Below, piece by piece: positions 36,841-62,968 of a stretch of DNA of 64,000 nucleotides. The stretch lies in assembly GCF_008064665.1 (NCBI RefSeq), contig NZ_VRZA01000007.1, forward strand, positions 124,001 to 188,000, written 5' to 3'. The stretch is from Parahaliea maris. Its GTDB lineage: Bacteria; Pseudomonadota; Gammaproteobacteria; Pseudomonadales; Halieaceae. Every line of letters starts with the position of its first letter. Position 1 is the stretch's first letter. The notes beneath the pieces were generated by a model that saw nothing but the letters and a program-made list of their open reading frames with translations, made no database searches and was not told where the DNA came from. The position numbers and the translations under genes were made by a program.

Positions 36841-36877
36841 CGATATATAGAAAAATCTGATAAAAAACAAAGGGATA

Positions 36878-36922
36878 TGGTGGGCCCAGAAGGACTTGAA
36901 CCTTCGACCTGCCGATTATGAG
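36878..36922 (-). other. att site: 3'-half of a CAT-anticodon tRNA
   Basis: The minus strand carries exactly 45 bases, from the anticodon loop CTCATAA through TCGGC, variable loop, T arm GAAGG-TTCAAGT-CCTTC, and TGGGCCC-A-CCA. No 5' half is present. This is the copy a tyrosine recombinase leaves when an element integrates into a tRNA 3' end. The direction places the element and the intact tRNA to the right. Confidence 0.8.
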
Positions 36923-37165: not shown

Positions 37166-37206
37166 CTGTCTAGTTTTTGATCAGTGAATCGACTAGGCTT
37201 CAACCA

Positions 37207-37908
37207 ATGAAAAGAATATTTGTGCCCACCCAATCGGGCGATGATTGGAAACCCCTCCTCGCAAAACCAGACCTTCATTGGAAAATCGGCCGATCGGCCA
37301 TGTCGACGGCCTCTTGCTGGGAAACGGCACGTGATCAATTGCCCCAGGACCTTAGGGTTACCCTCGAAGCTTCGGAAGATCCAGCGTTGTTGAATCTGGA
37401 ACTTCTAGCCGCGATCCCAGAATGGGAGGTTGAGCTACCAGGCGGTAAGACCTCCTCTTGCACCGATGTAATGGCTATCGCGAGGAACGAGTGTGGATTA
37501 GTGGTACTGGGGGTCGAGGCTAAAGTCGACGAGCCCTTCGGACCGACGCTAGGTGAAAAACGTAGGAATGCCTCGATGGGCCAGCAGGAGCGCATACGCT
37601 ACCTGGAAGCGGAGCTTCACGATGGACGTGAAATGGCAGATGAAATTCGCTACCAGCTCATGCATAGAACCGTCTCCGCGATTCTGACAGCTCGAGCGTT
37701 CCATACCGCCACTGCGGCGATGATCGTACAATCTTTCAGCGCTGATCAGGCATGGAGAGAGGACTTCGAATTCTTTGCGAGAGCCCTGGACGCAGAGCCG
37801 GTTACAGAAGATTTGTACCAGTTACATACCCCCAGCGGTGAGAAGTTGTATCTCGGTTGGTGTAAAGGTGACCTCCGTCACACAAGAGTAAATCTAGCTG
37901 ACACTTAG
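37207..37908 (+). CDS. DUF6946-like protein, putative PD-(D/E)xK nuclease
   Basis: 233 residues. It opens MKRIFVPTQSGDDWKPLLA and contains CTDVMAIARNECGLVVLGVE followed by AKVDEPFG, a D...ExK arrangement as in the PD-(D/E)xK nuclease fold; both parts agree with what I know of the DUF6946 family. ATG 37207 is preferred to a TTG 30 bases upstream. It is the first gene inside the island and is followed by a possible base-excision protein, so a DNA-damage or defence role is plausible. Nuclease activity is inferred. Confidence 0.6.
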   Translation: MKRIFVPTQSGDDWKPLLAKPDLHWKIGRSAMSTASCWETARDQLPQDLRVTLEASEDPALLNLELLAAIPEWEVELPGGKTSSCTDVMAIARNECGLVVLGVEAKVDEPFGPTLGEKRRNASMGQQERIRYLEAELHDGREMADEIRYQLMHRTVSAILTARAFHTATAAMIVQSFSADQAWREDFEFFARALDAEPVTEDLYQLHTPSGEKLYLGWCKGDLRHTRVNLADT

Positions 37909-38707: not shown

Positions 38708-39373
38708 ATGCGTCAAAAGGGAAAAATTAGGTCATGGAATGACCAAAAGGGGTTTGGATTTATCACTCCCGAGGATGGAGGCAAAGATGTCTTCATGCAC
38801 GTCTCAGCAGTGAGACGCCGGGGCAGGCGGCCAGTCGTAGGCGAGATAGCGTCATATGATCTGGGTACCGATAACCGAGGTCGACCGCGGGCGGCCAATG
38901 TGCTCTTGCCCGGTGATCGGCTGAAACCAGCCCAGGGAACCAAGGGCAGGACAGTTGCCGTTGTTGTGGCCATTGTATTCCTGTGTGCAATTTCAGCTGC
39001 CGTAGTGGTTGGCAAATTACCAGCCCTGATCCTTTGGGCCTACATTGGCTTGAGCATAATTACATTCTTTGTTTACGCGTTTGACAAGGTAGCAGCCAAG
39101 GATGGGGCATGGCGGACTTCTGAAGGAACTCTCCATGGCCTATCGCTATTTGGTGGCTGGCCGGGAGCTCTAGTGGCTCAGCAGTTCCTAAGACACAAGT
39201 CGAAGAAGCAATCGTTCCGGTCGATGTTTTTTGTAACTGTTGTCCTCAATCTGGGTATGTTGGCCGGTATGAGCACCGAGGTCGGACGCGATGTTTTTGG
39301 ATCATGGCTAGGGCTGTCGAATTCGAGTGACCGACCATTCGGGCGTGCAACGATAGAGTGGAGTGATCAATAA
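38708..39373 (+). CDS. Cold-shock domain fused to DUF1294 membrane domain
   Basis: 221 residues. Residues 1-65 are a cold-shock domain with both RNA-binding motifs (KGFGFI and DVFMHVS). About four membrane segments of the DUF1294 type follow (YIGLSIITFFVYAFDKVAAK, HGLSLFGGWPGALVAQQFLR, HKSKKQSFR). A C-terminal tail VGRDVFGSWLGLSNSSDRPF completes it. CSD-DUF1294 fusions are common and their role is unknown. The same tail appears again as a relic at about 44435-44542, on the far side of the Hsp70 operon. Confidence 0.87.
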   Translation: MRQKGKIRSWNDQKGFGFITPEDGGKDVFMHVSAVRRRGRRPVVGEIASYDLGTDNRGRPRAANVLLPGDRLKPAQGTKGRTVAVVVAIVFLCAISAAVVVGKLPALILWAYIGLSIITFFVYAFDKVAAKDGAWRTSEGTLHGLSLFGGWPGALVAQQFLRHKSKKQSFRSMFFVTVVLNLGMLAGMSTEVGRDVFGSWLGLSNSSDRPFGRATIEWSDQ

Positions 39374-39432: not shown

Positions 39433-40470
39433 TTAACTTCGCCAAGCTCTAGAAGCTGTTGGACTCAGAGTACTGAGATACGAGAGCGACTCATTCAGTT
39501 TTGCTTCAACCGTATCGATGCTCTCGGACTTGGATAATCCTTTAAGAAATGTAGTCATCTTAACCAACATTTGGTCCCCAAATTCGTCCTTGAATTTTGA
39601 TTGTTCATCCTTTGTAAATGTTCCTTTTGCCACTATAGTTTTGGCCCGCATCCACATTGCAACATCCCGCTCCGCGTTAGCAATTTTCTGCTTAGCTGGC
39701 CCATCAATAAATCTTTGCAAATCTTCTTCGATTCTTTTATCGATTTGTATCAAATTTTTGGAGGAAAACTGGAGATTTCCTGTATAAAAATCTTCGTTGA
39801 GGGAAAACCATATCAATGCTCTGCATCTGATAAGTATGGATGGGTGCGTCGATTCTGCTGCACGAGTATCAGTGCCCTCAATCTTATCCATCTGACGCAT
39901 AAAAGAACTGACATCAAATCTCAAATGTCTATCGTTCAGGCCAGATGCAGTCTTTATCAACGCTCTAATGGCGACGTCAATTGCGCCTGACGCAACGAGT
40001 CCAATTCGATCCGCAGATATTTCCATTGCTCGGTCATGCATCAAGGACTCTATTGAGTGAGGTTGACCAAAAAATTCTGTTCTGTAGTGCCGTAAGAGGA
40101 AATGCGCAATCTCATGTCCTAATACAAACTCGAATTCCTTAGGAGACAGAAGATCAATCAAAGCAGAAGAGAACCTGACTATGCACTCTCCGTCAGTTCC
40201 TAGCAAACATTGAGCATTGAGGTCAGGGCCAGGAAAAACGAAAACGTGTATACAAGCGCGAGGAATCTCAAGTCGATGTGAGACGTTTAGAACGCTCTCA
40301 TCCAGGGTGGGAGTGACGGCTGAACTGATCGATAACTCCTGCGAAAACAAGGAGTCACGTATTCTCTGTGCGTCTACAGCAAATTTTTTGTGTTGTGAGC
40401 AGGATTGGCGCTCACCGGAAAATCTAAGAGCTTCTATCCTTGCTCTACATGATTCCAGCTCTTTAAGCAT
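39433..40470 (-). CDS. M48-like zinc metalloprotease of the Hsp70 operon
   Basis: 345 residues, no signal or membrane segment, so cytosolic. Zinc site HEIAH at 119-123 with the third ligand Glu150 in AMEISADRIG, and STHPSILIRCRAL, the THPP-like loop of M48 peptidases. The N-terminus is a charged helix; the C-terminal third is helical and of unknown type. ATG 40470 overlaps the stop of the TerB gene by 8 bases; a TTG at 40500 is the alternative. It is the last gene of a four-gene operon with Hsp70 machinery, so it may degrade clients delivered by it. The protease class is fairly sure; the role is inferred. Confidence 0.75.
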   Translation of the reverse strand: MLKELESCRARIEALRFSGERQSCSQHKKFAVDAQRIRDSLFSQELSISSAVTPTLDESVLNVSHRLEIPRACIHVFVFPGPDLNAQCLLGTDGECIVRFSSALIDLLSPKEFEFVLGHEIAHFLLRHYRTEFFGQPHSIESLMHDRAMEISADRIGLVASGAIDVAIRALIKTASGLNDRHLRFDVSSFMRQMDKIEGTDTRAAESTHPSILIRCRALIWFSLNEDFYTGNLQFSSKNLIQIDKRIEEDLQRFIDGPAKQKIANAERDVAMWMRAKTIVAKGTFTKDEQSKFKDEFGDQMLVKMTTFLKGLSKSESIDTVEAKLNESLSYLSTLSPTASRAWRS

Positions 40471-41710
40471 ACTTTTTACGTGCTTCCGCAATCTTTTCAA
40501 GCATTAATTGAGCATTCCTTCTCTCCTCACCATCATCAAGGGTATTGAGTCGATTATTCCATTTCTGAAACTCCCCCAATAAGTGCTTTCTAACTTTGTC
40601 CTTCGGCCAATCTGGATCGATTCCTAGAAGAGATTCAACTCCATCGCTTGAACTTTGAGATGCATCAAGTGAAACAATTTTTTGGTCACGCAGCTTATTG
40701 ACTTCATCCAAATCAAGTTCAAGCGCGCTAGCAATTTTAGAAATTAGTGTAAGCTCACTTGCCTCTGCAATACCGTCAGCAGCCATAATCTCAAAGCACA
40801 GTTCGACCGCTTCAAACTTCTGTGCAGGATCCGCAACCTCGTTGAGGCGTTTTGTCAAGGAGCTTACTGCCAAATCACCACTTAGAGCTGCTTTGTAGGA
40901 CTCACGTAGAGCGGTGTTGTACATTTCCTTAAGACGTTGTTCTTCATCACCATCGTATGGAGAGATCAGCTTCATCACGTGTTGTTTGAGGATCTCACCT
41001 TCATCAGAGTGAAGTGATCCATCGGACATTGCCACCGCTACGCCCAACTTAAGAGATAGACATTGTGCTTCATCGCGGTCTTCAGACTGTTCTAAATAGC
41101 CCTTAGCATCATACTCCCAGGTAAAGTCGATCCCTTTTTGCCATAGAATTCCTGGATCATCGGGTTGGTGGAAGCCATGCTTTATAGAGGGAAGATTATC
41201 TATGTCCACTAACCGAAAAACCGCAACAAGCTCGCGCTTACCAGTGTATGGCGGCTGTATCATTTGCGGAATAGCTACCCCAAGCCTTACCCAGCTTGTG
41301 AAGCCGTAGTTAGGTTTTACCTCGCCAATTGGAAGCGCATGTTGATAGACGAGGCTTTCATCTTCTTGAAATGCGTCCAGTACGCATATTACTGGCTCAT
41401 ACTCTCCAGAGGTCTTGTCGAATATCGAAGTGATGCACGCAGCGTTGACTGGGCGTGTAACAGGAAATAGACCCTTGCCCATAATTTGCTTTACGATCGG
41501 ACTATCTTTGTCATCAGTGTCAATGTTGCCATCTTCAAGTTTGACTTCGAAGGGCTGCATTCCTTGGAACTGAAGCTCTAGATTTTCTGAAAACGTACCC
41601 TTTCCCAAAGCTGTTTTGCCGGCAGCTGTGACGGTCTTGGCGCCAGCAGAGAGAATTTGGCCGATAAAAACCCAAGCGATTATGACGCCAATTATGGCTA
41701 GTATTTCCAT
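40463..41710 (-). CDS. Membrane-anchored TerB protein with degenerate J domain (DjlA-like)
   Basis: 415 residues: one membrane helix at the N-terminus (2-22), an unrecognised beta-rich domain (45-200), a TerB domain (215-345, with VAMSDGSLHSDEGE and MAADGIAEASE), and a C-terminal J-like domain (358-415, LLGIDPDWPKDKVRKHLLGE). The order TM-TerB-J is that of DjlA, a membrane J-protein partner of DnaK. The HPD motif that activates Hsp70 is missing; the site reads NNR at 385-387. It lies 1 base after the Hsp70 gene. The co-chaperone role is inferred from layout and neighbours. Confidence 0.75.
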   Translation of the reverse strand: MEILAIIGVIIAWVFIGQILSAGAKTVTAAGKTALGKGTFSENLELQFQGMQPFEVKLEDGNIDTDDKDSPIVKQIMGKGLFPVTRPVNAACITSIFDKTSGEYEPVICVLDAFQEDESLVYQHALPIGEVKPNYGFTSWVRLGVAIPQMIQPPYTGKRELVAVFRLVDIDNLPSIKHGFHQPDDPGILWQKGIDFTWEYDAKGYLEQSEDRDEAQCLSLKLGVAVAMSDGSLHSDEGEILKQHVMKLISPYDGDEEQRLKEMYNTALRESYKAALSGDLAVSSLTKRLNEVADPAQKFEAVELCFEIMAADGIAEASELTLISKIASALELDLDEVNKLRDQKIVSLDASQSSSDGVESLLGIDPDWPKDKVRKHLLGEFQKWNNRLNTLDDGEERRNAQLMLEKIAEARKKYA

Positions 41711-41711
41711 G

Positions 41712-43211
41712 TTACTCTACCGTGAACTGTTCAATCGAAATAGCTTGTCCGTCATCGCTTCCAGACATTGATAGATCAATGTCGGTCCTTCTATTTGTCG
41801 CAACATCGACGAAAGCGCATTTCATTATCTGATTTTCGTCGTAGGCGTAAGTAACTTTGATTTCCTGGCCCTCCGGTCGTCCCGGGGGTAGTTCGAGCGC
41901 GCCTTCCCAAATAATCTTCACGAATCTCGGGTCAGTTTCCGGTGCTGTGGATTCAGTGAGCCTACATGCTACTGATGTTTGCCCATCAGACATGGTGTAG
42001 AAAGACTCGGTGACAGAGCATGGTATCTTTTCCCCCTTCATGATGATGACGCTATTCGACAAAGTGGGTTGGTCACGGTGTTGGTCGTACGTTACGGCGA
42101 TAGTGCCAAAGCACTTGGATGTGCTTTCACTTACTCGAATCTTTCCTATGGAATGCTTTTGTGTCTCGGTTAGTTTAGATTTGTCACCCTTATAAGCGGC
42201 ATAAAGCGCCGCGCCCATTGCCACAACCTCGTCTACATTGACAGAGGCTGTTGGCTCTTTACCAAACACTCGCGTTACACTTTCTCGAACGAGGGGAACG
42301 CGAGTGCTACCCCCAGCGAGAAATATCTCTCTAATATCGCAAGGACTAATACCAGCCTCTTCGATCGTTGATTCGCAAAGCATTTCCGCTTGAGCTATGA
42401 GTGTAGATATTCCTTCCTCAAACTCTTCACGCGATATTTCAATCAGTTTCCGATTGACTTTGAGAGTGACGCTTTTCCTTTTTGAAAGTGACTTTTTCTC
42501 TTCTTCTGCGTCGTTTAAAGTGAAGTCTTCGTCATCAAGAGGGTCGCCAGTGATTTGTGCGTACTTCCTCTTTACAATCCCAATAATGACTTTGTCGAAA
42601 TCGTCTCCACCGAGCTTAGACACACCATTAGATGCGAGCACTTCGACATCCTGACCGTCGACTCGGATTATGGATACGTCAAAGGTGCCTCCGCCTAGAT
42701 CATATACTGCATATACTCCATGAAGATCTTCGCCGTTCTTGAAGGCGTAGTACAGTGCGGCCGCTGTCGGTTCATTGATAATATAATTTACCTTTAGGCC
42801 GGCACTTTTTGCTGCCGTCATCGTGGCTTCACGTGCTTCTGTAGAAAAATTAGCTGGAATTGTGACCACAGCTTCACCAACACTTCCAAGATTCTTGTTA
42901 GCTATCTTGAGTAGTTTTTTTAATACAAAGCTACTTAGCTGTGTTGGGGAGAAATTCTTTCCGTTAATGCTGTGGGTTCTTTCTGTACCCATGTCTCTTT
43001 TGAAACGAGCTGCAGCCCTCTCGGGGGAGACGCCCCATGTTTTTCGAGCGGTATCGCCAACTTCCATCTGGCCCTCGTCACCTTCTGAGACACAGGAGGG
43101 GACTATGTTTTCGCCATCCTCGTCATGAATGATTAGAGGCCTACCGGTCTTGTCAATAGTGGAGACCGCGGAGAATGTGGTTCCTAGGTCTATACCTATA
43201 AATGCTGACAT
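41712..43211 (-). CDS. Hsp70 (DnaK-like) chaperone lacking the lid
   Basis: 499 residues. The ATPase domain is intact: GIDLGTT at 6-12, DLGGGTFD at 171-178, GGSTRVP at 300-306. The beta substrate domain is present (about 365-495, with ELPPGRPEGQEIKVTYAYDE). The C-terminal helical lid is absent, and the usual hydrophobic linker DVLLLDV is not seen; the region reads KHSIGKIRVSESTSKC. Full DnaK has about 640 residues, HscC about 555. It is the second gene of the operon, 3 bases after the GrpE-like gene. It is probably tuned to a narrow client at the membrane rather than being a general chaperone. Confidence 0.92.
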   Translation of the reverse strand: MSAFIGIDLGTTFSAVSTIDKTGRPLIIHDEDGENIVPSCVSEGDEGQMEVGDTARKTWGVSPERAAARFKRDMGTERTHSINGKNFSPTQLSSFVLKKLLKIANKNLGSVGEAVVTIPANFSTEAREATMTAAKSAGLKVNYIINEPTAAALYYAFKNGEDLHGVYAVYDLGGGTFDVSIIRVDGQDVEVLASNGVSKLGGDDFDKVIIGIVKRKYAQITGDPLDDEDFTLNDAEEEKKSLSKRKSVTLKVNRKLIEISREEFEEGISTLIAQAEMLCESTIEEAGISPCDIREIFLAGGSTRVPLVRESVTRVFGKEPTASVNVDEVVAMGAALYAAYKGDKSKLTETQKHSIGKIRVSESTSKCFGTIAVTYDQHRDQPTLSNSVIIMKGEKIPCSVTESFYTMSDGQTSVACRLTESTAPETDPRFVKIIWEGALELPPGRPEGQEIKVTYAYDENQIMKCAFVDVATNRRTDIDLSMSGSDDGQAISIEQFTVE

Positions 43212-43214
43212 TGA

Positions 43215-44330
43215 TTAAGCTCCTGGATTACTAGAAAGCTGAAATACCTTGACCTTTGAGGGTATGATCACAGTCGCTTCTTCCCCCGCTATCAGTCGAT
43301 ATCCTGCTTCTATGACTTCAGCCACCTTGAAGTCATCTTCTTCAGATTGCGTTGGGATAATCTTGGGGTTATCTGAAATACTATCGCCGAGTTTTCTATA
43401 ATCATCTCCGACGTCAGGCTCGAATCGTATGACGCCTGACTCTTCAAAAGCATCTTCAAGCAGTCGTCTGATAAAGTGTAGTGATTCCGAATCATCGCCG
43501 TCCTCTATAAATTCACTAACAGCTTGATCAACTCGTGCAAACCTTAATACAAATCGCCGGAAAATTTCTGCATCATAGCCTTTACGTAATCGTCTTATCT
43601 CTTGGTCCTTTTCATCGAGAGCAGAGTTAAGTTCAAGATATGTTTCTATCATGGAGGCGACTTTCGTTTCGGTTCTGCCGTTCTGATCAGTATTGCGCGC
43701 TAATTCTGTCGTAATGCCCATATGGAGCGCTTCTAGCCCCGATCCGACTGAAGATAGATATTTGCCCCACTTTTCCGGAACAAGCAATCTCTGGTCATTG
43801 ATAAGTAATTGCCTCCAACGATAAAGGTAGAAACTAATACCAATGGAAAGAGCTGTTGTAGTTACAAGGAGAAAAAGCATGACAACAAGCCATGCTGGTA
43901 TAGAGGCAGCTTCCTGTATATTAGGTGCCGCGCCTTCTACGGTGTTGTCTTGGCGATCTCTAGTCAGGTAGTTATCTCGATCAGTATCAAAATTGTCGTT
44001 TTGGGAGTTGATGTCGCCATAATTGGCATTTGACAGCTTGAGTGTATTGCCAGGCGATTCGGATGTTTGGTGGTCACGCGCTGACATCAACGCTGAGTTC
44101 TGCTCGCGCCGAGTGGGGACGGGCACTGAAGATTTAAAGGTAGATTCCTCGTTACCTAGTGACCTAGCAAACGGAAATCCGAATGTTTCCGTTCCATTCG
44201 GTAGTCCGCCGTTGGTCTCGATTTCGAGCCAAGGAGACGTGCTGGTTGATTGTGTTTGAGCTACAACACTTGTAGAAGTTATGGTTGCTAGCAAGCATAA
44301 AAGCGGAGAAAGGCGTCTCCTGACTCTCAT
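43215..44330 (-). CDS. Membrane-anchored GrpE-like nucleotide exchange factor
   Basis: 371 residues. Signal peptide (PLLCLLATITSTSVVAQ), a polar low-complexity periplasmic part (25-145), one membrane helix (146-170), then a cytosolic part. The cytosolic end (225-365) has a coiled coil, a helical bundle and the closing pattern VAEVIEAGYRLIAGE, then VIIPSKVKVF. This parallels the GrpE beta-wing (VxGIxxKGYxL then AxVxVxK). It is directly upstream of a DnaK-like gene. AGGATGA lies before the ATG. The GrpE relation is from reading the pattern and is not yet tested. Confidence 0.65.
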   Translation of the reverse strand: MRVRRRLSPLLCLLATITSTSVVAQTQSTSTSPWLEIETNGGLPNGTETFGFPFARSLGNEESTFKSSVPVPTRREQNSALMSARDHQTSESPGNTLKLSNANYGDINSQNDNFDTDRDNYLTRDRQDNTVEGAAPNIQEAASIPAWLVVMLFLLVTTTALSIGISFYLYRWRQLLINDQRLLVPEKWGKYLSSVGSGLEALHMGITTELARNTDQNGRTETKVASMIETYLELNSALDEKDQEIRRLRKGYDAEIFRRFVLRFARVDQAVSEFIEDGDDSESLHFIRRLLEDAFEESGVIRFEPDVGDDYRKLGDSISDNPKIIPTQSEEDDFKVAEVIEAGYRLIAGEEATVIIPSKVKVFQLSSNPGA

Positions 44331-44620: not shown

Positions 44621-45325
44621 TCAGCTATCGGGCATGGTATCTGAATCAGTGGAGAGGCTTGCCTGCATCCGCTGGGCACGAGATTGAATGAACTTAATGG
44701 TCGCGTCCTTTAACTTTAGATACTCTTCAGCATTCGCAGGTATGCCCTTACGAATGAAACCATCAAACGGTAGAAAAAAATCTACTTGGTTGTCAGCTGT
44801 TACAAGGTCTTGCAGTAAAAAGAAATTTACATACCCATCGAAATTAATAAACAACTCGAAGAACGCGTTGTAACGTTGAAGCACATCGGCTAGTGGTGAT
44901 TTTTCAAAAATATAATGCCTTCGAATGCATTCAAGTGTTAGGTCAAATCTGTCGGCTATTTTTGCATTTATACCCCGTGCCTGATTAATCGTGTTCTTTC
45001 TGTCAATCTGATATGAGGGGAATATGATATAAGCACCAATTGTTGACCCCGCCCGATAGAGCTCTTCAGCGTCGGCATTAACCTCGCCGATAATCGCAGC
45101 CATACGGGTATTTCCGCGATAACTATTGGTAATCGCGTCACTGCTCAGGGCTAACTCCCGCCATTGCAGATATTTTGTGTTAGTCATATCCAAGCTAAAA
45201 TACTTCCCATTGGGTAGAGTCTTAGACCAGAGCATTTGGTGGTACCGACGTAGAGTTGGGCTATGTGAGTCTGGATCTTTTCCGGCGGGGGTATCGGTAA
45301 AAAAATCAAATTTTGTGTCAATCAT
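44621..45325 (-). CDS. Protein of unknown function, DUF6994-like
   Basis: 234 residues, soluble. It opens IDTKFDFFTDTPAGKDPDSH, then SPTLRRYHQMLWSKTLPNGK, a pattern I associate with DUF6994 proteins. Other clear stretches are MAAIIGEVNADAEELYRAGS, DLTLECIRRHYIF and FLPFDGFIRKGIP, suggesting a globular alpha/beta protein. No catalytic motif is recognised. It is the last gene of a five-gene minus-strand cluster, 12 bases after the secreted repeat protein. Confidence 0.6.
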   Translation of the reverse strand: MIDTKFDFFTDTPAGKDPDSHSPTLRRYHQMLWSKTLPNGKYFSLDMTNTKYLQWRELALSSDAITNSYRGNTRMAAIIGEVNADAEELYRAGSTIGAYIIFPSYQIDRKNTINQARGINAKIADRFDLTLECIRRHYIFEKSPLADVLQRYNAFFELFINFDGYVNFFLLQDLVTADNQVDFFLPFDGFIRKGIPANAEEYLKLKDATIKFIQSRAQRMQASLSTDSDTMPDS

Positions 45326-47445: not shown

Positions 47446-47789
47446 TCAACCCCTTCCCTGGATGCTGTGTTTTCATGTGATGCTGCATTTGTCAACATAC
47501 CTTATCTAGAAGAAAAAAAAAAATAGGTTTATGGAGTGAAATCCCGGGCCAAGCCGGGAATGTGACTGAAATATGTACAGATAGCGTGGCCCAGAGCGGG
47601 CCGGGGATGTGCCCCCGGGGGCGAGCCAGGGGGAGGGTGAGATTGCCCGCGAGCGGGGCAAAGTGGGGCCACAAGAGTGGCCGTACTGCAGGAGCCGGTG
47701 CGGCAGACAGTGCGTGGTGTATGTGGTGCTACAGGAATTCAGAAATCCAGATCCCCGGGGTCCGGCCAGGTGGTCAGCTGGGATGCTGG
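47446..47789. other. GC-rich stretch with no gene seen
   Basis: 344 bases between the membrane-protein operon and the integrase relic. An A-run lies at about 47513-47523, then G/C-rich low-complexity sequence. It should hold the promoter of the operon to its left. No reading frame here looks real. Confidence 0.5.
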
Positions 47790-47806
47790 CTAACTGGGAT
47801 TCTGGG
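47788..47806 (+). repeat. AACTGGNATTCTGG island repeat, copy 2
   Basis: GCTAACTGGGATTCTGGGT, at the 3' end of the integrase relic. Confidence 0.45.
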
Positions 47807-48095
47807 TCACCCGATCCACATAGTCGCCGACGCTCTTGGTGGCCTGCCGAAGAGCCTCAGAGGTGAGGTGGCTATAACGTTGCGTTACAGAAGAGTCACT
47901 ATGGCCCAGCACCTTCTGGACAACGTCCAGGCTGTGCCCGCTAAAGACCAGCATACTGGCATTCATGTGGCTTAGCTCGTGCAAACAGATATGCTCCAGG
48001 CCAGCAGATTTCCTCAGGGTCTGCCAGACCTTATTGATGGAGGTTACACGCTGATCGCCTCTACGGCTACTCACGAAAAGCCTTCTGATCGATTG
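47790..48095 (-). pseudogene. Integrase C-terminal fragment
   Basis: About 94 readable residues, collinear with the last quarter of the integrase at 48484 (TSINKVWQTLRKSA, SGHSLDVVQKVLGHSD, QRYSHLTSEALRQ). The catalytic HxxR box is LHELSH here against LHDLRH in the intact protein, so the Arg is lost; the Tyr is kept. Similarity stops near 48095 and no N-terminal part exists. It is a diverged duplicate or the rest of an earlier integrase, not a recent copy. Confidence 0.85.
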
Positions 48096-48483
48096 TCGTG
48101 CCTGGTCTGCTTGGTGAATAGCGTGTTGCTTGTTAGTAAATCTATGTTCATAAAAATAGTGCTTTCGTAGGATCGAAAAAATACATAAGGTTTAAGTCAC
48201 ATAAACATTGACGAACTACGCGTCCGAAAGGTAGACACATTAGCGAGGCCGCAGGCGGGCCGGCGAGGTGACCCATGGGGCGAGCCAGGGGCCGGGGGGG
48301 AATGGCCCACAGCGGGCCGGAGAGGCGGCCTCAGGGGCGGTGTGGTCGGACGGCGCGGTCAGTGAATGACGCCGTCAGAGTTCCAGGCTCCCACAGCCCC
48401 GGAGCCCGGTCGCGGCGGCGCACCATGACCGGGAAACTGGAATTGTAGAATCCTGGAATGCAACCGAATCTGTCCTCTGACCG
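48096..48483. other. GC-rich spacer next to the integrase
   Basis: 388 bases with no gene seen. It contains a variant copy of the AACTGG repeat at its right end; it may hold the recombination arm sites, but none could be proven. Confidence 0.4.
48429..48456 (+). repeat. AACTGG island repeat, variant copy 3
   Basis: GGGAAACTGGAATTGTAGAA followed by TCCTGG, directly downstream of the integrase stop. Confidence 0.4.
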
Positions 48484-54983: not shown

Positions 54984-56465
54984 ATGTCAGGTGAAAAATT
55001 AAACTTATCACAATTAGAGCAATATCTTTCGAAAGCAGCCTGGATACTCAAAGGGCCGGTCGATGCCTCAGACTTCAAGGTCTACATATTTCCCTTGTTA
55101 TTTTTCAAGCGCGTATCGGATGTATATGACGAAGAATACCAGTCAGCGCTTGAAGAATCCGATGGTGATGTAGAGTACGCATCTCTGCCTGAAATGCATC
55201 GCTTTGAGATTCCCGAGGGCTGCCATTGGCGCGATGTTCGCGAGACCACCACCAATGTTGGCCAAGCCATTGAACATGCCTTGCGCGGAATCGAAAAGGC
55301 AAATCAGGAATATCTCTACGGCATATTTGGTGATGCCCAATGGAGTAACAAGAACAAGCTATCCGATAGCCTACTAATCAACCTTATTGAGCATTTTTCG
55401 CAATACACATTGGGCAGAGAAAATGCAAATCCAGATATGCTGGGCAATGCCTATGAGTATCTCATCAAGCACTTCGCCGACCTAACCAATAAAAAGGCAG
55501 GAGAGTTCTACACCCCGCGATCCGTTGTGCATCTATTGGGCCTGATCCTCGACCCCCATGAAGGTGAAACAATCTACGACCCTGCCTGCGGCACAGGTGG
55601 GATGCTGCTTGAGTGCGTTGATCACCTCAATCACAATAATGAAGACTACAGAACGCTAAAGCTCTACGGCCAAGAAAAGAACCTAACATCTAGCTCAATT
55701 GCTCGCATGAACATGTTCCTGCACGGTATTGAGGATTTTGAAATACTGCGCGGCGATACTCTCAGACAGCCTGCATTCTTCGAAGCTGATGGCCTTCAAA
55801 CATTCGATTGTGTCATAGCAAACCCCCCGTTCTCCCTCAAAGATTGGGGAGCCGAGAATTGGGCCAATGACCCATATGGCCGGAATATCGCTGGAGTTCC
55901 GCCACAAGGTAACGGCGATATGGCCTGGGTGCAGCACATGGTGAAATCCATGAATAGCACAGGAAGAATGACTGTGGTGCTGCCTCATGGAGCGCTATTT
56001 CGCAAAGGCGCTGAAGGCAAAATTCGTAGAGTGCTAATTGAGCATGACCTGCTAGAAGCCGTAATCGGCTTAGGACCCAATGTGTTCTACGGAACACAGC
56101 TAGCGGCATGTGTGATGGTATTCAAGCAAAACAAAGACACAGCGAAAAAAGGCAAAGTCCTATTTATAGATGCATCAGACCAAATTCGTGTAGGCCGAGC
56201 CCAAAACTTTTTAGAACCAAAACATGTTCAACAAATCCATAAATGGTATCAGGCGTTCGAGGATGTAGATAACTACGCAAAAGTCGCAACGCAGGAAAAC
56301 CTATTAGATAACGACTGCAACCTGAACATTCCGCTCTATGTCGAGAAAATTATTGAAGACAACTTGCCGAGCGTTGAAGAAGCCATGGCCGAATTGAAAG
56401 AGGCATGGGAAGCGAGCTTGGAAGCGGAAGAAAAGTTCAAGGAAGTATTGGAGAAGTTTATTTAA
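54984..56465 (+). CDS. hsdM: Type I restriction-modification methylase subunit, first copy
   Basis: 493 residues. N-terminal HsdM helical domain (PLLFFKRVSDVYDEEYQ), then the methyltransferase fold: SAM motif DPACGTGG at 199-206 and catalytic NPPF at 280-283, as for N6-adenine methylases. It would methylate the host's recognition sites using SAM, with HsdS giving specificity. Its stop overlaps the start of a second hsdM by one base (TAATG). Confidence 0.93.
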   Translation: MSGEKLNLSQLEQYLSKAAWILKGPVDASDFKVYIFPLLFFKRVSDVYDEEYQSALEESDGDVEYASLPEMHRFEIPEGCHWRDVRETTTNVGQAIEHALRGIEKANQEYLYGIFGDAQWSNKNKLSDSLLINLIEHFSQYTLGRENANPDMLGNAYEYLIKHFADLTNKKAGEFYTPRSVVHLLGLILDPHEGETIYDPACGTGGMLLECVDHLNHNNEDYRTLKLYGQEKNLTSSSIARMNMFLHGIEDFEILRGDTLRQPAFFEADGLQTFDCVIANPPFSLKDWGAENWANDPYGRNIAGVPPQGNGDMAWVQHMVKSMNSTGRMTVVLPHGALFRKGAEGKIRRVLIEHDLLEAVIGLGPNVFYGTQLAACVMVFKQNKDTAKKGKVLFIDASDQIRVGRAQNFLEPKHVQQIHKWYQAFEDVDNYAKVATQENLLDNDCNLNIPLYVEKIIEDNLPSVEEAMAELKEAWEASLEAEEKFKEVLEKFI

Positions 56466-57943
56466 TGTCGGCAAAAGAACTAGACCAAAAATCGCTAGAG
56501 AAATACCTGTGGGGCGCGGCCACGGCTTTGCGCGGCACTATCGACGCAGGTGATTACAAGCAGTACATATTCCCGCTGCTTTTCTTTAAGCGTATCTCCG
56601 ATGTTTACGATGAAGAGTTTGAGAATGCACTGGCAGAATCCGATGGCGATTTAGAGTACGCAGCATTCGCTGAAAACCACCACTTTCAAATCCCGGAAGG
56701 TTCACATTGGAAAGATGTGCGTGAAACAACGGTAAATGTGGGCCTTGCCCTACAAAACGCAATGCGGGCTATTGAGAAGGCGAACCCAGACACGCTAGAA
56801 AGCATTTTCGGTGATGCAAGCTGGACAAACAAAGATCGCTTGTCGGATGCGATGTTAACAAACTTGATAGAGCATTTTTCACAGCACAAACTGAATTTGA
56901 GTAACGTGCCTGATGACAAACTGGGTAACGCATACGAATACCTCATAAAGGAGTTCGCGGACGATAGCGGCCATACTGCCGCTGAGTTTTATACGAACCG
57001 AACCGTCGTAAAACTGATGACCTTGATCATGGACCCACAACCGGGAGAGTCTGTTTACGATCCCACCTGTGGTTCTGGTGGCTTACTTTTGAATTGTGCC
57101 CTGCATTTGAAAGAAGAAGGGAAAGAATACCGAACGCTCAAGCTCTATGGTCAGGAGATAAACCTCATAACATCGGCTATCGCTCGCATGAATATGTTTA
57201 TGCACGGTATTGAGGAATTCGATATTGTGCGGGGTAATACCTTGGCCAATCCGGGATTTCTGGAGAATGATGAACTTAAGAAGTTCAATGTCATCCTCGC
57301 AAACCCGCCATATTCAATTAAATCCTGGGATAGGAAGTCATTCGAAAATGATCCCTTTGGCCGAAATTTTTGGGGTACGCCGCCACAAAACTGCGCCGAC
57401 TACGCATTTGAACAACATATACACAAAAGTATGGATACAAAAAATGGTAGGTGTGTTCAGTTGTGGCCTCATGGCATCCTTTTCAGAGACAGCGAAAAGG
57501 AAATGCGACGCAAGATGATTGAGACAGACACAGTTGATTGTGTCATTGCCCTAGGAAAGAACCTGTTTTACAACTCATCCATGGAGTCCGCATTGTTGAT
57601 TAGACGGACAAATAAGGAGAGGAAAAAGAAAGGTAAGGTGCTGTTCATTAATGCATTTAAAGAGGTTAAGGAAGAAAAAGCTATTTCTTATCTATTAGAT
57701 CAACACATCGAAAAAATATATAAAGCGTATAGTAACTATGAAGATGTTGATGACTTTTGTCGCGTAGTGTCGAATGAAGATATCAAGGAGAATGATTGTT
57801 CTTTGTTGGTTACGAACTATATAAAATCATCGAGGATATCAGATCCAACCGACATAGAATTTAATGATGCTTATTCTGCATGGGAGAAAAGTACTATATC
57901 TTCAAGAATAAGTATGAGTTCCCTCTTGGGGCAAGAGGGGTGA
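56465..57943 (+). CDS. hsdM: Type I restriction-modification methylase subunit, second copy
   Basis: 492 residues, collinear with the first HsdM and clearly paralogous, but diverged: SAM motif DPTCGSGG at 199-206 and catalytic NPPY at 280-283, both intact. The last 130 residues use more A/T and differ most from the first copy. The ATG overlaps the stop upstream, and HsdS starts 2 bases after its own stop, so all are translated in step. Two HsdM subunits with one HsdS could form a heterodimeric methylase. Confidence 0.92.
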   Translation: MSAKELDQKSLEKYLWGAATALRGTIDAGDYKQYIFPLLFFKRISDVYDEEFENALAESDGDLEYAAFAENHHFQIPEGSHWKDVRETTVNVGLALQNAMRAIEKANPDTLESIFGDASWTNKDRLSDAMLTNLIEHFSQHKLNLSNVPDDKLGNAYEYLIKEFADDSGHTAAEFYTNRTVVKLMTLIMDPQPGESVYDPTCGSGGLLLNCALHLKEEGKEYRTLKLYGQEINLITSAIARMNMFMHGIEEFDIVRGNTLANPGFLENDELKKFNVILANPPYSIKSWDRKSFENDPFGRNFWGTPPQNCADYAFEQHIHKSMDTKNGRCVQLWPHGILFRDSEKEMRRKMIETDTVDCVIALGKNLFYNSSMESALLIRRTNKERKKKGKVLFINAFKEVKEEKAISYLLDQHIEKIYKAYSNYEDVDDFCRVVSNEDIKENDCSLLVTNYIKSSRISDPTDIEFNDAYSAWEKSTISSRISMSSLLGQEG

Positions 57944-57945
57944 TC

Positions 57946-59148
57946 ATGAAGTTAGATAAGTTAAGCTGGAAAAAAGTAAAGCTCGGAGACGTAGTCACAA
58001 AAAGGGAAGAAGTTGATAGAGCTAACGCTAAAAATGAGTTTGATCTCTTTATTAAGGTTGATCATTTAGATGCTGAGTCCTTACATGTAAAAAGATGGGC
58101 CTCTCAAGAAGCGCACGAGATTCCTCCCACATTCTACAAGATTTTCAGAAAGGGGCAGGTTTTGTTTCCAACACGAAACCCCCATTTAAAGAGAGCTTCT
58201 TTAGCCCACTTTGATGGGATATGCGGAGAAAAGACATTAACCATAGAGGCCAACTCAGAAATAATTCTTCCTGAGTTCCTTCCGTTTCTGTTTCATTGCG
58301 ATGCGTTCTACGCGCACACAACTTCTTCGATTGTTGGTTCAACAAATCCACATGTTCGTTGGAGGGATGTGGCAAAATTCGAGTTTTTATTGCCTTCTAT
58401 TAATGTTCAGCGTGAGCTTTCAGAACTTTTATGGTGTGGCGACGAAACTATTGAGTCTTCTGTTAGAACTAAAAGTGATCTTTCATCTTTGCTGAATGCT
58501 GAGGTTGAATCAGAGATTCATGGAGTAGATATCGCCGGGAAAACCATCAACCAGGTTCTCTCGGAGCTATCAAAGTCCATCAATGTAATAAAGCTCAAAG
58601 AGCTTGGAAGTGTATTCAAGGGTAGAGGAATACCAAAAGCTGAAGTCCTTCGCGAAGGAATTCCTTGTGTCAGATATGGAGAACTATACACAAAACATCA
58701 TCGCATAATTAGGGATTTTGACTCGTATATATCAGAGGAATCTGCTGAGAAAGCCGTTCAACTCAAAAAAAATGATGTTCTATTTGCCGGTTCAGGTGAA
58801 ACTATTACCGAAATTGGAAAGTCAGCATGCTTTATACACGATGACAAGGCATATTCTGGCAGCGACATTTTAATATTTCGGCCACATGATATGGATGGCG
58901 TGTATTTGGGGTATCTGATGAATTCTCAGCTGGTGAGACAGCAGCTAAACAAATTTGGAACTGGAGCTACTGTTATGCATATATATGCAGCAGACGTAGA
59001 AAAACTACAAGTACCTGACTTGGGTAAAGATAAGCAAATAGCAATAGGGCAACGTCTAGAGACCATAACAAAAGAAATATTCTTGATGGATGAAAAAATA
59101 GCAAAGGCTAAAGAATTACAAAAAGTAATTATCAATCAGGTATTTTAG
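57946..59148 (+). CDS. hsdS: Type I restriction-modification specificity subunit
   Basis: 400 residues with the two-fold HsdS layout. The first target-recognition domain is about 1-190; a conserved helical spacer (NVQRELSELLWCGDETIESS) and the second domain from about residue 210 (KLKELGSVFKGRGIPKAEVL, then KNDVLFAGSG, IYAADVEKLQVPDL) follow, closed by a helical end (LMDEKIAKAKELQKVIINQV). It is markedly A/T-rich compared with HsdR. It recognises a bipartite DNA site; the sequence of that site cannot be read from the protein. Confidence 0.92.
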   Translation: MKLDKLSWKKVKLGDVVTKREEVDRANAKNEFDLFIKVDHLDAESLHVKRWASQEAHEIPPTFYKIFRKGQVLFPTRNPHLKRASLAHFDGICGEKTLTIEANSEIILPEFLPFLFHCDAFYAHTTSSIVGSTNPHVRWRDVAKFEFLLPSINVQRELSELLWCGDETIESSVRTKSDLSSLLNAEVESEIHGVDIAGKTINQVLSELSKSINVIKLKELGSVFKGRGIPKAEVLREGIPCVRYGELYTKHHRIIRDFDSYISEESAEKAVQLKKNDVLFAGSGETITEIGKSACFIHDDKAYSGSDILIFRPHDMDGVYLGYLMNSQLVRQQLNKFGTGATVMHIYAADVEKLQVPDLGKDKQIAIGQRLETITKEIFLMDEKIAKAKELQKVIINQVF

Positions 59149-59150
59149 GG

Positions 59151-62120
59151 ATGGGATTTACTGAATTAAATAGCGTCGAGCACTACATCATCAATCAATT
59201 GACGGGTGTAAATCTCAATCAGGGAAAGGTCGCTGAGACACCTTTGCAGCCCTATGGCGCTGAGTGGCAATATCAAAGTTCAGAGCAGCTTGGCCGTGGT
59301 GTTAATGAAGTACTCGTTGAGTCGCAGGTGAAAGAAGCGTTACTGCGTCTTAACCCTGAAATACAAGCGAAGCCTGAACTGGCGGATGAGGTCATCTACA
59401 AGCTCCGCGCCATTTTAATCTCGGTAAATCAGATTGGTCTTGTAAAAGCCAATGAAGAATTCTTCTTGTGGCTTACAGGCGAGAAAACCATGCCTTTCGG
59501 CGAGAGTAATCGCCATGTACCTGTTCGCTTAATCGATTTCGACGATTTCGCCAATAACCAATATATAGTCACTAACCAGTTTCGCATTCATCACCGCGAA
59601 ACCAAGATACCCGATGTGGTGATGGTGATTAACGGCATTCCCGTTGTCATCGGCGAAGCTAAAACACCCATCCGGCCATCCGTGAGCTGGCTTGATGGCG
59701 CGAATGAAATACACAACATCTATGAGAATGCGGTTCCGCAGCTCTTTGTGCCGAATATCTTGTCTTTTGCGACTGAAGGCAAAGAGCTGTATTACGGCGC
59801 TATACGCTGCCCATTAGAATTTTGGGCGCCGTGGCGACTGGAGAATGACGACGAGAAAATTGCCAAAAGCCTTGGTTTAGCTGGTATGGGTAAGGAGCTT
59901 ATCGACTTGCTAAGCCCGGTTCGCCTGCTCGATATCATGCGTAACTTCTCTTTGTTTACTAGCAACAGCAAGAAGCAGCGTATGAAGGTCATACCGCGCT
60001 TTCAGCAATATGAAGGGGCCAACAAGATTGTTCAGCGGGTTATAGAGGGCAAGATCAAAAAGGGCTTGATTTGGCACTTCCAAGGCTCAGGTAAATCATT
60101 GCTCATGGTCTTTGCTGCGCAAAAGCTCCGCCGCGAAGTCTCCCTTAAAAGCCCAACCGTTATTGTGCTGGTAGACAGAACCGACCTGGACACACAGATT
60201 AGCGGGACGTTTAATGCCGCGGACATCGCCAATGTCGAAACCACCGAAAGCATTAAAGAGCTACAGCAAATACTGGAGCGGGATACCCGCAAGATCATTA
60301 TCTCGATGATTCATAAGTTCCGCGATGCGAAGCCAGACATGAATACCCGCGACAATATCATTGTTCTTGTGGATGAAGCACACCGCACTCAAGAAGGCGA
60401 TCTTGGTCGCCAGATGCGGGCTGCATTACCCAATGCTTTCCTATTTGGTCTGACAGGAACGCCAGTCAACAAGGCGGACAAGAATACATTCTGGGCTTTT
60501 GGCGCTGAGGAAGATCAAGGCGGATATATGAGCCGCTATACCTTCCACGACTCCATCCGCGATAAAGCAACACTGCCTCTGCATTTTGAGCCGCGCTTGG
60601 TTGATGTCCATGTTGATAAAGACTCCTTGGATCAGGCTTTTGAAAACCTGAAAGAGAGAGCGGGCCTTACGGATGAGGAAGCAGATGCCTTAAACCAGAA
60701 ATCGGCGAAGATGGCTGCATTCCTCAAGGCTCCGGAGCGCGTTGAGAAGATCGTGAATGACATTGCCGTGCATTTCAAAGAGAAGGTGTTACCCCATGGC
60801 TTCAAGGCAATGATAGTCACGCCGGATCGCCATGCTTGTGTTCAATACAAGGAAGAGCTGGATAAGAACTTCCCAGTCGAAGCCAGTAAAGTTGTTATTT
60901 CTACGACGGCTAACGATGAGCTTGAGTTTAAACAAAAATGGGGTGTTGATAAAAGCCAGCAGGAAAAGATCGTCGATGAGTTTAACGATGCCACCTCAGA
61001 ACTTAAATTTATTATCGTTACAGCCAAGCTTTTGACGGGGTTTGATTCACCAATACTTCAAACGATGTATTTAGACAAGTCCATAAAAGATCACACGCTC
61101 CTCCAGGCGATATGCCGGACTAACCGTCTGTATCCGTATAAAACCTTCGGCAGAATTGTCGATTATTTTGGAGTATTTGATGATGCAGCAAAGGCTCTTG
61201 AGTTCGATGATGAAAGCCTACAGCAGGTTATCACCAATCTTGCCGAGCTCAGGTCAAAATTGCCACAAGCAATGGCGGACGCTTTATCTCATTTTGAAGG
61301 AGTTGATCGCGCCCTGGAAGGATTTGAGGGATTAGAAGCCGCGCAGGATGCCATTGATACTGACGAGAAGAAAGATGCCTTTGCAGCAGACTTCAAATAC
61401 TTAGCCAAGCTTTGGGAATCGCTTTCGCCGGATAATATCCTTGATGCCTATAACACCGATTATAAATGGCTCGCCCAGGTCTATGAGTCGGTCAAACCAG
61501 CTTCAGACAACATTGGGAAATTGCTGTGGTTAACCTTGGGTGCACAGACAACCCAGTTGATCCATGAAAACATTCATGTCGGTGAAGTGCATACACTAGA
61601 TGAATTCGTTATGGACGCCGACGTTATTGAAGATATATTCAATAACCCTGATCCAAGGAAGACAAAGCAATTAGAGAAGGCGTTAGCGAAACGCTTTAAA
61701 GATCGCGTCGATCTTCCAGTATTTAAGTCGTTGAGCGAGAGGCTTGAAACGCTTAGAGATAAGGCTGAGAAAGGACTAATCGCCTCAATCGACTTTGTTA
61801 AAGAGCTTTGCAAGATCGCTAAGGAAACACTCCAGGCTGAAAAGGAGCTTGAGGAAGCTAGACAAGAGAAATCACCAAAAGCCGCTCTTACTGAGCTATT
61901 CTTGGAGCTGAAAAGCAACCAAACGCCCGCAGTCGTCGAGCGCATAGTCAATGATATTGATGCCATTGTTCGCATAGTACGTTTCCCTGGCTGGCAGAAT
62001 ACTACTGGGGGCGAACGTGAGGTGCAGAAGTCGCTGCGTAAGACATTGCTGAAATACAAGCTGCATACTGATCAGGATTTATTTGATCAGGCATACGCAT
62101 ATATTCGGGAATACTATTGA
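59151..62120 (+). CDS. hsdR: Type I restriction endonuclease subunit R
   Basis: 989 residues. N-terminal PD-(D/E)xK nuclease: Asp155 (PDVVMVI) and Glu169-x-Lys171 (IGEAKTP). Then the translocase: Walker A GSGKS at 312-316, DEAH at 408-411, LTGTP, and motif VI QAICRTNRLYP. The helical C-terminus binds HsdM/S. It moves DNA past the complex and cuts unmethylated DNA at a distance. It starts 2 bases after hsdS. Its stop overlaps the start of the next gene by one base, showing that two further genes are part of the same transcript. Confidence 0.95.
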   Translation: MGFTELNSVEHYIINQLTGVNLNQGKVAETPLQPYGAEWQYQSSEQLGRGVNEVLVESQVKEALLRLNPEIQAKPELADEVIYKLRAILISVNQIGLVKANEEFFLWLTGEKTMPFGESNRHVPVRLIDFDDFANNQYIVTNQFRIHHRETKIPDVVMVINGIPVVIGEAKTPIRPSVSWLDGANEIHNIYENAVPQLFVPNILSFATEGKELYYGAIRCPLEFWAPWRLENDDEKIAKSLGLAGMGKELIDLLSPVRLLDIMRNFSLFTSNSKKQRMKVIPRFQQYEGANKIVQRVIEGKIKKGLIWHFQGSGKSLLMVFAAQKLRREVSLKSPTVIVLVDRTDLDTQISGTFNAADIANVETTESIKELQQILERDTRKIIISMIHKFRDAKPDMNTRDNIIVLVDEAHRTQEGDLGRQMRAALPNAFLFGLTGTPVNKADKNTFWAFGAEEDQGGYMSRYTFHDSIRDKATLPLHFEPRLVDVHVDKDSLDQAFENLKERAGLTDEEADALNQKSAKMAAFLKAPERVEKIVNDIAVHFKEKVLPHGFKAMIVTPDRHACVQYKEELDKNFPVEASKVVISTTANDELEFKQKWGVDKSQQEKIVDEFNDATSELKFIIVTAKLLTGFDSPILQTMYLDKSIKDHTLLQAICRTNRLYPYKTFGRIVDYFGVFDDAAKALEFDDESLQQVITNLAELRSKLPQAMADALSHFEGVDRALEGFEGLEAAQDAIDTDEKKDAFAADFKYLAKLWESLSPDNILDAYNTDYKWLAQVYESVKPASDNIGKLLWLTLGAQTTQLIHENIHVGEVHTLDEFVMDADVIEDIFNNPDPRKTKQLEKALAKRFKDRVDLPVFKSLSERLETLRDKAEKGLIASIDFVKELCKIAKETLQAEKELEEARQEKSPKAALTELFLELKSNQTPAVVERIVNDIDAIVRIVRFPGWQNTTGGEREVQKSLRKTLLKYKLHTDQDLFDQAYAYIREYY

Positions 62121-62968
62121 TGCCTCAAGACGATAATATAGCTGCACTTGAGATTACTGGCTTTCCAATTGATGATGATTGTGTCGGGTCAAAATGGAAA
62201 GTTGAGAATGAAGATCAGTTGGCTCGTCTTATAGCAATAGTTATTATGGGACAGGCTGCGCAGGCAGCTCATATTATTGACGAATTATTACCAGCCGCTC
62301 CTGCATTTACTACTGATGCACTCAAACAGGAAGCAGTAATAAAGTTCACTGTTCAGGAAGTGGCTCAAACTCCACGAAAGGGTTATCCCAGAATTCAGAG
62401 GGATGGCTTGATATTTGAAATTATTTCCTGGATAGCTGCCAAACAGGTATCCGGTGACAAATGTTTTCTTAAAGATCCGCACACGAGTTCTACATCTCAA
62501 GGCTTAGACGGGATCATGATAGAGCTTAATGAAGATGGTAGTGAAATATTAAAATCCACCATCTTTGAAGATAAGTGTACGGACAATCCACGAGATACAT
62601 TTACGCAGAAAGTAATACCTGGGTTCTTAGATCGGCACGGAAACACGAGAAACGCAGAGCTTATTGCTGCCGCTGCAACCCTTATCCAGCTAAGTGGAGT
62701 TAGTAATGTGCAGGCCATGTCTATGGTTCGCAAAGTAATTGATAACTCAAGCAGGCAATATCGAGCAGGTTTTGCGTTAACTCAGGATTTCAATACGGAG
62801 GAAGCCCAGAAGGCGTTGTTTAAGGGGTATGACAAAATAAAGGATATAAACCAGGAACAACGTATTGGTGCAAGCCTTATTGTGGATGGAAAGTTAAGGG
62901 ATTGGTTTGATGCGTTGTCAACAAAAATCATTGCTTACATAGAACAGTTAGATGTGGAGCAGGATTAA
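62120..62968 (+). CDS. Putative nuclease paired with helicase (HamA/AbpA-like by layout)
   Basis: 282 residues. The central part shows Asp130 (GLDGIMIEL) and Glu150-Asp-Lys152 (TIFEDKCTDNPRD), a D...ExK arrangement of PD-(D/E)xK nucleases. Then come VIPGFLDRHGNTRNAELIAA and a helical C-terminal part. A nuclease next to a helicase resembles the HamAB (Hachiman) or AbpAB defence pairs, but the sequence is not close enough for me to name the family. ATG 62120 overlaps the HsdR stop (TGATG), and its own stop overlaps the helicase start (TAATG). Confidence 0.6.
   Translation: MPQDDNIAALEITGFPIDDDCVGSKWKVENEDQLARLIAIVIMGQAAQAAHIIDELLPAAPAFTTDALKQEAVIKFTVQEVAQTPRKGYPRIQRDGLIFEIISWIAAKQVSGDKCFLKDPHTSSTSQGLDGIMIELNEDGSEILKSTIFEDKCTDNPRDTFTQKVIPGFLDRHGNTRNAELIAAAATLIQLSGVSNVQAMSMVRKVIDNSSRQYRAGFALTQDFNTEEAQKALFKGYDKIKDINQEQRIGASLIVDGKLRDWFDALSTKIIAYIEQLDVEQD

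Follow-up and report, generated by a model that had tools for sequence, protein, structure and literature searches.

A rare gene cassette of Parahaliea maris that may encode a membrane-tethered Hsp70 switch with its own protease

This locus raises the question of what an Hsp70 without a lid does when its gene is packed between the genes for two membrane proteins and followed by a gene for a protease. It lies at positions 39433 to 44330 of a 64,000-nucleotide stretch of the Parahaliea maris genome (contig NZ_VRZA01000007.1, positions 124,001 to 188,000 of the forward strand), which we call the window. A first-pass annotation had described four tightly packed genes here, and the list of open reading frames (ORFs) confirms the positions: 39433-40500, 40463-41710, 41712-43211, and 43215-44330, all on the minus strand. 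The intergenic gaps are 3 bases and then 1 base, and the last gene, provided that it begins with the ATG at 40470, shares 8 bases with the one before it. In order of transcription, the four co-directional genes encode the following (TM, transmembrane segment):

43215..44330, minus strand, GrpE-like membrane protein, 371 amino acids; based on the ORF, a TM scan, homologues, and weak similarity to GrpE
41712..43211, minus strand, lidless Hsp70, 499 amino acids; ATPase and beta substrate-binding domains, without the alpha lid
40463..41710, minus strand, TM-beta-sandwich-TerB-J-like protein, 415 amino acids; TM 2-22, beta-sandwich 55-199, TerB ~204-348, J-like end ~352-415
39433..40470, minus strand, M48-type zinc protease, 345 amino acids from the ATG at 40470, or 355 amino acids from a TTG at 40500

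The best explanation that we can offer, and a tentative one, is that these genes form a laterally moving cassette whose products make up a non-canonical Hsp70 switch, tethered to the membrane and equipped with a protease of its own. This explanation and the three rivals considered below are not mutually exclusive, and the rival that concerns the identity of the GrpE-like protein overlaps the others.

Conservation and rarity

Two other gammaproteobacteria, the genome G1040 and the metagenome-assembled genome AqS3 (G576; MEIF01000030.1), carry all four genes as well, with order and direction unchanged. Because the order recurs in two further genomes, we consider it to be a conserved cassette and not a product of chance. 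The first-pass annotation had allowed that homologues of the four genes might mostly be found apart. Instead, the whole set is present in all three genomes with this kind of Hsp70, which favors a cassette; a distant relative of the M48 protease does occur alone, in another genome (G092, discussed below). The identities of the AqS3 and G1040 proteins to those of the window are 52% and 62% for Hsp70, 42% and 44% for the TerB protein, 35% and 30% for the M48 protease, and 24% and 29% for the GrpE-like protein, respectively. In AqS3, the genes for Hsp70 and the TerB protein are 217 bases apart. In a hydropathy scan, the GrpE-like protein and the TerB protein each had a single TM segment and the Hsp70 and the protease had none, so two parts are indeed tied to the membrane, as had been proposed. 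The same holds for the two homologous sets, in which the signal peptides of the GrpE-like proteins also come out as hydrophobic (signal peptides were assigned by eye).

The cassette is conserved yet rare. We searched several samples of genomes, which overlap, with the Hsp70. At E ≤ 1e-60, 3 of 145 relatives had matches, and the two frames from outside the window genome were 570 and 580 amino acids long. Across the class (1e-55), matches were found in 16 of 369 genomes, but just the window genome (500 amino acids) and G576 (483) had short frames; the remaining 14 frames had 567-624 amino acids, so the cassette type was present in 2 of the 369. Across the order (1e-85), the only matches were in the window genome and G1040 (2 of 322), and across the phylum (1e-80), 22 of 388 genomes had matches, with 968.8 bits for the window genome and at most 287.7 bits for the other 21 (cassette type, 1 of 388). 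Against the profile built from the three Hsp70s, the members reach at least 845 bits. These class, order, and phylum searches scored up to four candidates per genome, so members may have escaped. The search was positive for just one of the 46 genomes of G1040's family and for one of 56 relatives of G576/AqS3, and neither of the two congeners searched had an Hsp70 match at E ≤ 1e-60; on these three counts, we rejected the idea that the cassette belongs to the core genome of a lineage. A first scan of a genome collection was fruitless; a second, with two peptide patterns, found AqS3 only, and it gives no estimate of rarity for that collection.

The GrpE-like protein was found in the window genome alone among 145 relatives. 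The same was true of the TerB protein among 398 genomes of the phylum, where the other two matches were a small TerB protein and a DjlA-type TerB-DnaJ protein. In plasmids, searches for the TerB and GrpE-like proteins were fruitless. The window M48 had no match in plasmids either, and M48 searches of plasmids and phages were fruitless. Searches of viral contigs with single proteins and with alignments were also fruitless save for one short, distant M48 (L063); within about 4 kb of it, no other cassette genes were seen by eye. Phage Hsp70s were 28-33% identical to the query among the matches listed (the best 20 of 41 records).

The four proteins

The first-pass annotation described the second protein as a lidless DnaK-like protein, and this holds. 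It matches the Pfam family HSP70 (PF00012) with an E value of 1.9e-84, and the match stops at position 501 of 599, with the final 163 residues covering positions 406-501 alone; therefore, the alpha lid is missing. The Hsp70s of the three members are 474-499 amino acids long. The acidic tail of the window protein (SIEQFTVE, 41715-41738) is shared with G1040 (SIDQFMVD) and is not found in AqS3.

What the first-pass annotation had not mentioned is a change at the position of Arg167 of DnaK. In an alignment, this position is Y, Q, or Y in the three members, but it is arginine in all 40 comparison Hsp70s (37 loci from our searches, E. coli DnaK and HscC, and one Rhodococcus plasmid Hsp70; these are best search matches and not a random sample). 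Similarly, the position of Asp393 is glutamate in 3 of 3 members and aspartate in 40 of 40 comparators, and the DnaK linker VLLLDVTP is replaced in the members. The residues D8, K70, E171, T199, and D201 (E. coli numbering), which we take to be the catalytic residues of the Hsp70 active site, are retained in all three members and in the comparators.

The third protein has the TM segment and TerB domain that had been claimed for it. TerB (PF05099) is above the Pfam cutoff in all three members (2e-11 for the window protein), and the sequence profile matches a TerB structure in the PDB (2jxu, 0.0034). Our AlphaFold models were built from two-sequence alignments and have low confidence; for this protein, the model (pLDDT 62) has a TM helix, a beta-sandwich, a helical TerB region, and three J-like helices in the expected order. 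Foldseek found no matches to this model at E ≤ 0.001, and 2h5n, a protein of "unknown function" that is presumably TerB-like, ranked ninth (probability 1.00, E 0.03). At the C-terminal end, the profile aligns in the register of the J domain across 20-25 columns with a probability of about 5%, and none of 200 column shuffles was as good; here and in the GrpE comparisons below, column shuffling is a lenient control, as it destroys local order. The HPD motif, whose absence had been reported for the window protein, was not found at the J position in any of the three members, which share a KWN.RLN stretch there instead; an HPD does occur in the AqS3 protein, but within the TerB region and outside the J position. 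Because HPD is missing from that position, we do not class the 40463 protein as a J protein.

A suppressor mutation and modelling indicate that D35 of DnaJ, which is part of HPD, contacts R167 of DnaK (PMC5519331). To judge from the alignments, the canonical J-Hsp70 switch seems to have been lost on both sides while the ATPase residues stayed intact. This joint loss of HPD and Arg167 argues for a machine that has given up the canonical J switch and retained its ATPase.

The first protein consists of a signal peptide (about 1-24), an ectodomain, a TM segment (about 148-166), a cytosolic helical region, and a GrpE-like C-terminal part (about 255-365). The ectodomain is poorly conserved and differs among the three species. 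Just upstream of the AqS3 cassette is a second protein with a signal peptide and a TM segment (L023:3688-4455), which by eye resembles the ectodomain of the GrpE-like protein and has no GrpE-like end.

The fourth protein is an M48-type protease, as had been annotated. Zinc proteases of this family have an HExxH motif and a downstream glutamate; the window protein contains HEIAH and EISAD, and HExxH and ExxAD are present in all three members, which also exceed the Pfam cutoff for M48 (PF01435; 2.3e-14 for the window protein). The C-terminal part of the window protease has no significant match in Pfam. We considered whether it could be a TerB domain and rejected this, as it had no TerB match and 10 of 200 shuffles scored equally well.

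The genomic island

The claim that the operon lies on a mobile island also held up: a 46-bp repeat of the 3' end of tRNA-Met marks both ends, and there is an integrase in between.

36877..36922, no strand assigned, att repeat at the left end of the island; 46 bp from the 3' end of tRNA-Met, the same sequence as at contig 191122-191167
47789..48082, minus strand, diverged partial copy of the C-terminal end of the integrase, 82% DNA identity
48484..49674, minus strand, tyrosine integrase, 396 amino acids; Pfam Phage_integrase, 1.7e-34
54984..62120, plus strand, type I restriction-modification genes; two HsdM, HsdS, and HsdR
62117..62968, plus strand, 283-amino-acid protein without a PADLOC match; overlaps the start of the helicase gene by one base
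L097:969-4157, helicase similar to HamB of Hachiman, 1062 amino acids; at the right end of the island, continues beyond the end of the window

The right copy of the repeat would be at 67122-67167 in window coordinates and overlaps an intact tRNA-Met gene (contig 191123-191199, minus strand). The two copies enclose 30.2 kb, which extends about 3.1 kb beyond the end of the window and includes the cassette, the integrase and the broken duplicate of its end, the restriction-modification genes, and the unit formed by the 283-amino-acid protein and the helicase. The G+C content is 0.586 to the left of the repeat and 0.477 from there to the end of the window; the operon itself has 0.454.

The partial copy of the integrase may mark the border of an older element carrying the cassette. 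The end of the integrase and nearby DNA are duplicated within 47582-48776 (82% and 73%), which suggests that two elements integrated in tandem. The two HsdM genes, in tandem at 54984-57943, are different from each other. The last 717 residues of the helicase match the PADLOC model of HamB (4.8e-20), and the candidate family PDC-M23B matches similarly well (1.3e-19); together, the helicase and the 283-amino-acid protein may form a variant of Hachiman. Around the cassette are genes for DUF6994 (44621-45325), DUF6946 (37177-37908), and a cold-shock-DUF1294 protein (38708-39373). Scans for promoters and terminators found no more sites than in shuffled sequences.

Possible roles and relatives of the cassette

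If the best explanation is correct, then the TM-TerB-J-like protein, with its DjlA-type layout, would be a membrane dock for the Hsp70 and its client. The GrpE-like protein would sense a change in the periplasm or the membrane, and its cytosolic GrpE-like end would set the nucleotide state of the Hsp70. An Hsp70 without a lid would free its client quickly, so that nucleotide exchange would be the trigger. The soluble M48 protease would then receive the client, or a held-back M48, and cleave it. The machine would most likely be used under certain conditions, as cargo that a genomic island carries for defence or for envelope stress. A further proposal, which we think improbable, is a new class of bacterial module made up of a sensor, a switch, and an effector. 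In it, the Hsp70 would be driven not by a J protein but by its own exchange factor, which would at the same time be a membrane receptor; a cue from outside or from the membrane would cause exchange, and the lidless Hsp70 would then release a client to a dedicated M48 protease, or free that protease, against phages or plasmids.

Several findings weigh against the best explanation. First, the GrpE identity of the 43215 protein is only suggestive, and homology is statistically insecure. The window protein missed the Pfam cutoff for GrpE (PF01025; E = 0.26, 11.4 versus 25.8 bits), and no GrpE match was listed for either of the other two members. GrpE was not among the matches when we searched profiles of the PDB with the GrpE-like protein. 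The AlphaFold model of the cytosolic part has helices and then strands, which is the order in GrpE, but with low confidence (pLDDT 58), and GrpE was not among the best 50 of 447 Foldseek matches. When single sequences were compared to GrpE, the AqS3 protein aligned well (26.1), but the window protein (14.2) and the G1040 protein (12.7) were at the level of noise.

These results would also fit a coiled-coil/beta membrane sensor that is not GrpE, in which case the set would comprise an Hsp70, a membrane receptor, and a protease. We consider this somewhat unlikely, as the gene adjoins that of the Hsp70 and the profile of the GrpE-like proteins is colinear with that of 24 true GrpEs across 132 columns (P 0.003, probability 10%), with just 1 of 200 column shuffles exceeding the real score. 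Against a more diverse GrpE profile, 23 columns were aligned, with a probability of 3%, and none of 300 column shuffles scored as high. Thus, of the exchange factor with a signal peptide and a membrane helix that the first-pass annotation described, the membrane features are supported, but GrpE identity, which we regard as likely, is not secured (below the cutoff, with probabilities of 3-10%). Because the cutoff was missed, we do not assign the protein to the GrpE family.

Second, the contact residues could be missing from the Hsp70 and the J-like protein for another reason, namely that the two never touch. Third, the known members of the cassette are three only.

Fourth, the protease may not need the Hsp70. 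In a search of 97 relatives with an M48 profile (1e-15), there were matches in two genomes, the window genome and G092. The G092 protein (L091:7797-9952) is a distant relative of the M48 with a C-terminal TerB domain just above the cutoff (24.7 versus 24.4 bits), and no Hsp70 was seen by eye among the nearby ORFs; therefore, this kind of protease can work alone. At the same time, the fusion speaks for a link of such proteases to TerB. The gene in G092 is downstream of a gene for a GDSL-like hydrolase (below the cutoff). A search of plasmids with the G092 protein yielded six records, and of the three that we inspected, one, from Tsukamurella, has an Hsp70 nearby (L094:4345-11996). There, grpE is divergent from the Hsp70 gene, and then come an unknown gene, one for an MFS transporter, and one for an M48 protease; this is a weaker parallel to the cassette.

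Fifth, the surroundings of the cassette vary. The neighbors of the AqS3 copy look metabolic by eye. The G1040 copy is about 6 kb from ATP synthase genes and adjoins a gene with a NERD domain and a zinc ribbon (L029:5905-6639). Defence genes are therefore not the general company of the cassette. Also, PADLOC has no models that match the Hsp70, the TerB protein, or the GrpE-like protein at E values up to 1.

These surroundings bear on two rivals. The cassette might carry out plain quality control of membrane proteins, with the chaperone set extracting misfolded proteins or presenting them to the M48 protease, and have no role in immunity. Two of the three members lie outside defence surroundings, the TerB protein has the DjlA-type layout, and the closest NCBIfam models for the window M48, both weak, are LoiP (1.4e-4) and HtpX (3.3e-4). 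HtpX has a TM segment, however, and the window M48 does not. A set that is so rare and patchy (none of two congeners and 1 of the 46 genomes in G1040's family) would also be odd for housekeeping. We think that pure quality control is a credible but doubtful explanation.

The other rival is defence against phages or plasmids, in which the Hsp70 complex would keep an M48 effector inactive and free it upon infection. The island, with its type I restriction-modification genes and HamB-like helicase, is consistent with this, and there are precedents in the published accounts: sets of Hsp70 and GrpE in predicted conflict systems (PMC7159879), CoCoNuTs with Hsp70-like parts (PMC11090510), and the dependence of bNACHT25 on DnaJ (PMC12169576). 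However, the sole PADLOC match in the cassette is a weak one of the M48 to capP (5e-4), and neither the G1040 nor the AqS3 copy has clear defence neighbors, save for the NERD-domain gene. A defence role of this kind seems unlikely to us. As between quality control and defence, the island in the window argues for defence, and the surroundings in AqS3 and G1040 give no clear preference.

By analogy, the cassette might work most like a private DjlA-DnaK pair or like the mitochondrial PAM motor with Pam16. DjlA of E. coli, which works with DnaK, also has a single TM helix, a TerB-like domain, and a C-terminal J domain (PMC11709261). The cassette protein differs in having a beta-sandwich between TM and TerB and in lacking HPD, and it has a dedicated, adjoining Hsp70 that is lidless and lacks Arg167. 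In E. coli HscC-DjlB/DjlC and in another cluster that we found (L007), a second Hsp70 lies beside J-type genes, and in L007 there is also a gene that looks by eye like GrpE. Unlike the Hsp70 of the cassette, these Hsp70s are full length and retain Arg167, and no TerB or M48 was seen alongside them. As for HtpX and LoiP, they share the zinc motifs, but the window M48 differs in its lack of a TM segment and in that its C-terminal part matched nothing significantly in Pfam.

The PAM motor also has a membrane-tethered Hsp70 and a degenerate J-like partner, Pam16, together with Mge1, which is a GrpE-type factor. The PAM motor contains a true J protein, Pam18, whereas the cassette has no J protein with HPD and has an added protease.

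A further precedent is the family of predicted conflict systems with GAP1-N2 and GTPases, in which an Hsp70, a GrpE, and a partner fused to DnaJ or TPR domains share an accessory neighborhood (Kaur et al. 2020; PMC7159879). The cassette has TerB and M48 instead, and its GrpE-like part is a membrane protein. Pfam scans of its neighbors recognized no GTPase, GAP1-N2, FNIII, or TPR, though no search dedicated to GTPase or GAP1-N2 was run. A stretch of a Rhodococcus plasmid (L088:4601-11527) encodes an Hsp70 of 510 amino acids, a TPR protein, GrpE, and an FtsK-type ATPase, which may be compared to the GAP1-N2 theme.

Because sets with Hsp70 and GrpE had already been described in predicted conflict systems, this kind of system is known, and it is the TerB protein, the membrane-bound GrpE-like receptor, and the M48 protease that are new. 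In the titles and abstract openings of open-licence literature, we found no description of the four-gene set, which does not show that it is absent from print. New here are the recurrence of the set in two genomes, the island bounded by tRNA-Met repeats, and the joint loss of HPD and Arg167. The cassette combines a protease with an Hsp70 and a membrane anchor in a single unit that can be transferred, and it provides a natural Hsp70 that lacks Arg167, has no HPD beside it, and retains its ATPase residues, with which it can be tested what drives an Hsp70 in the absence of a J protein.

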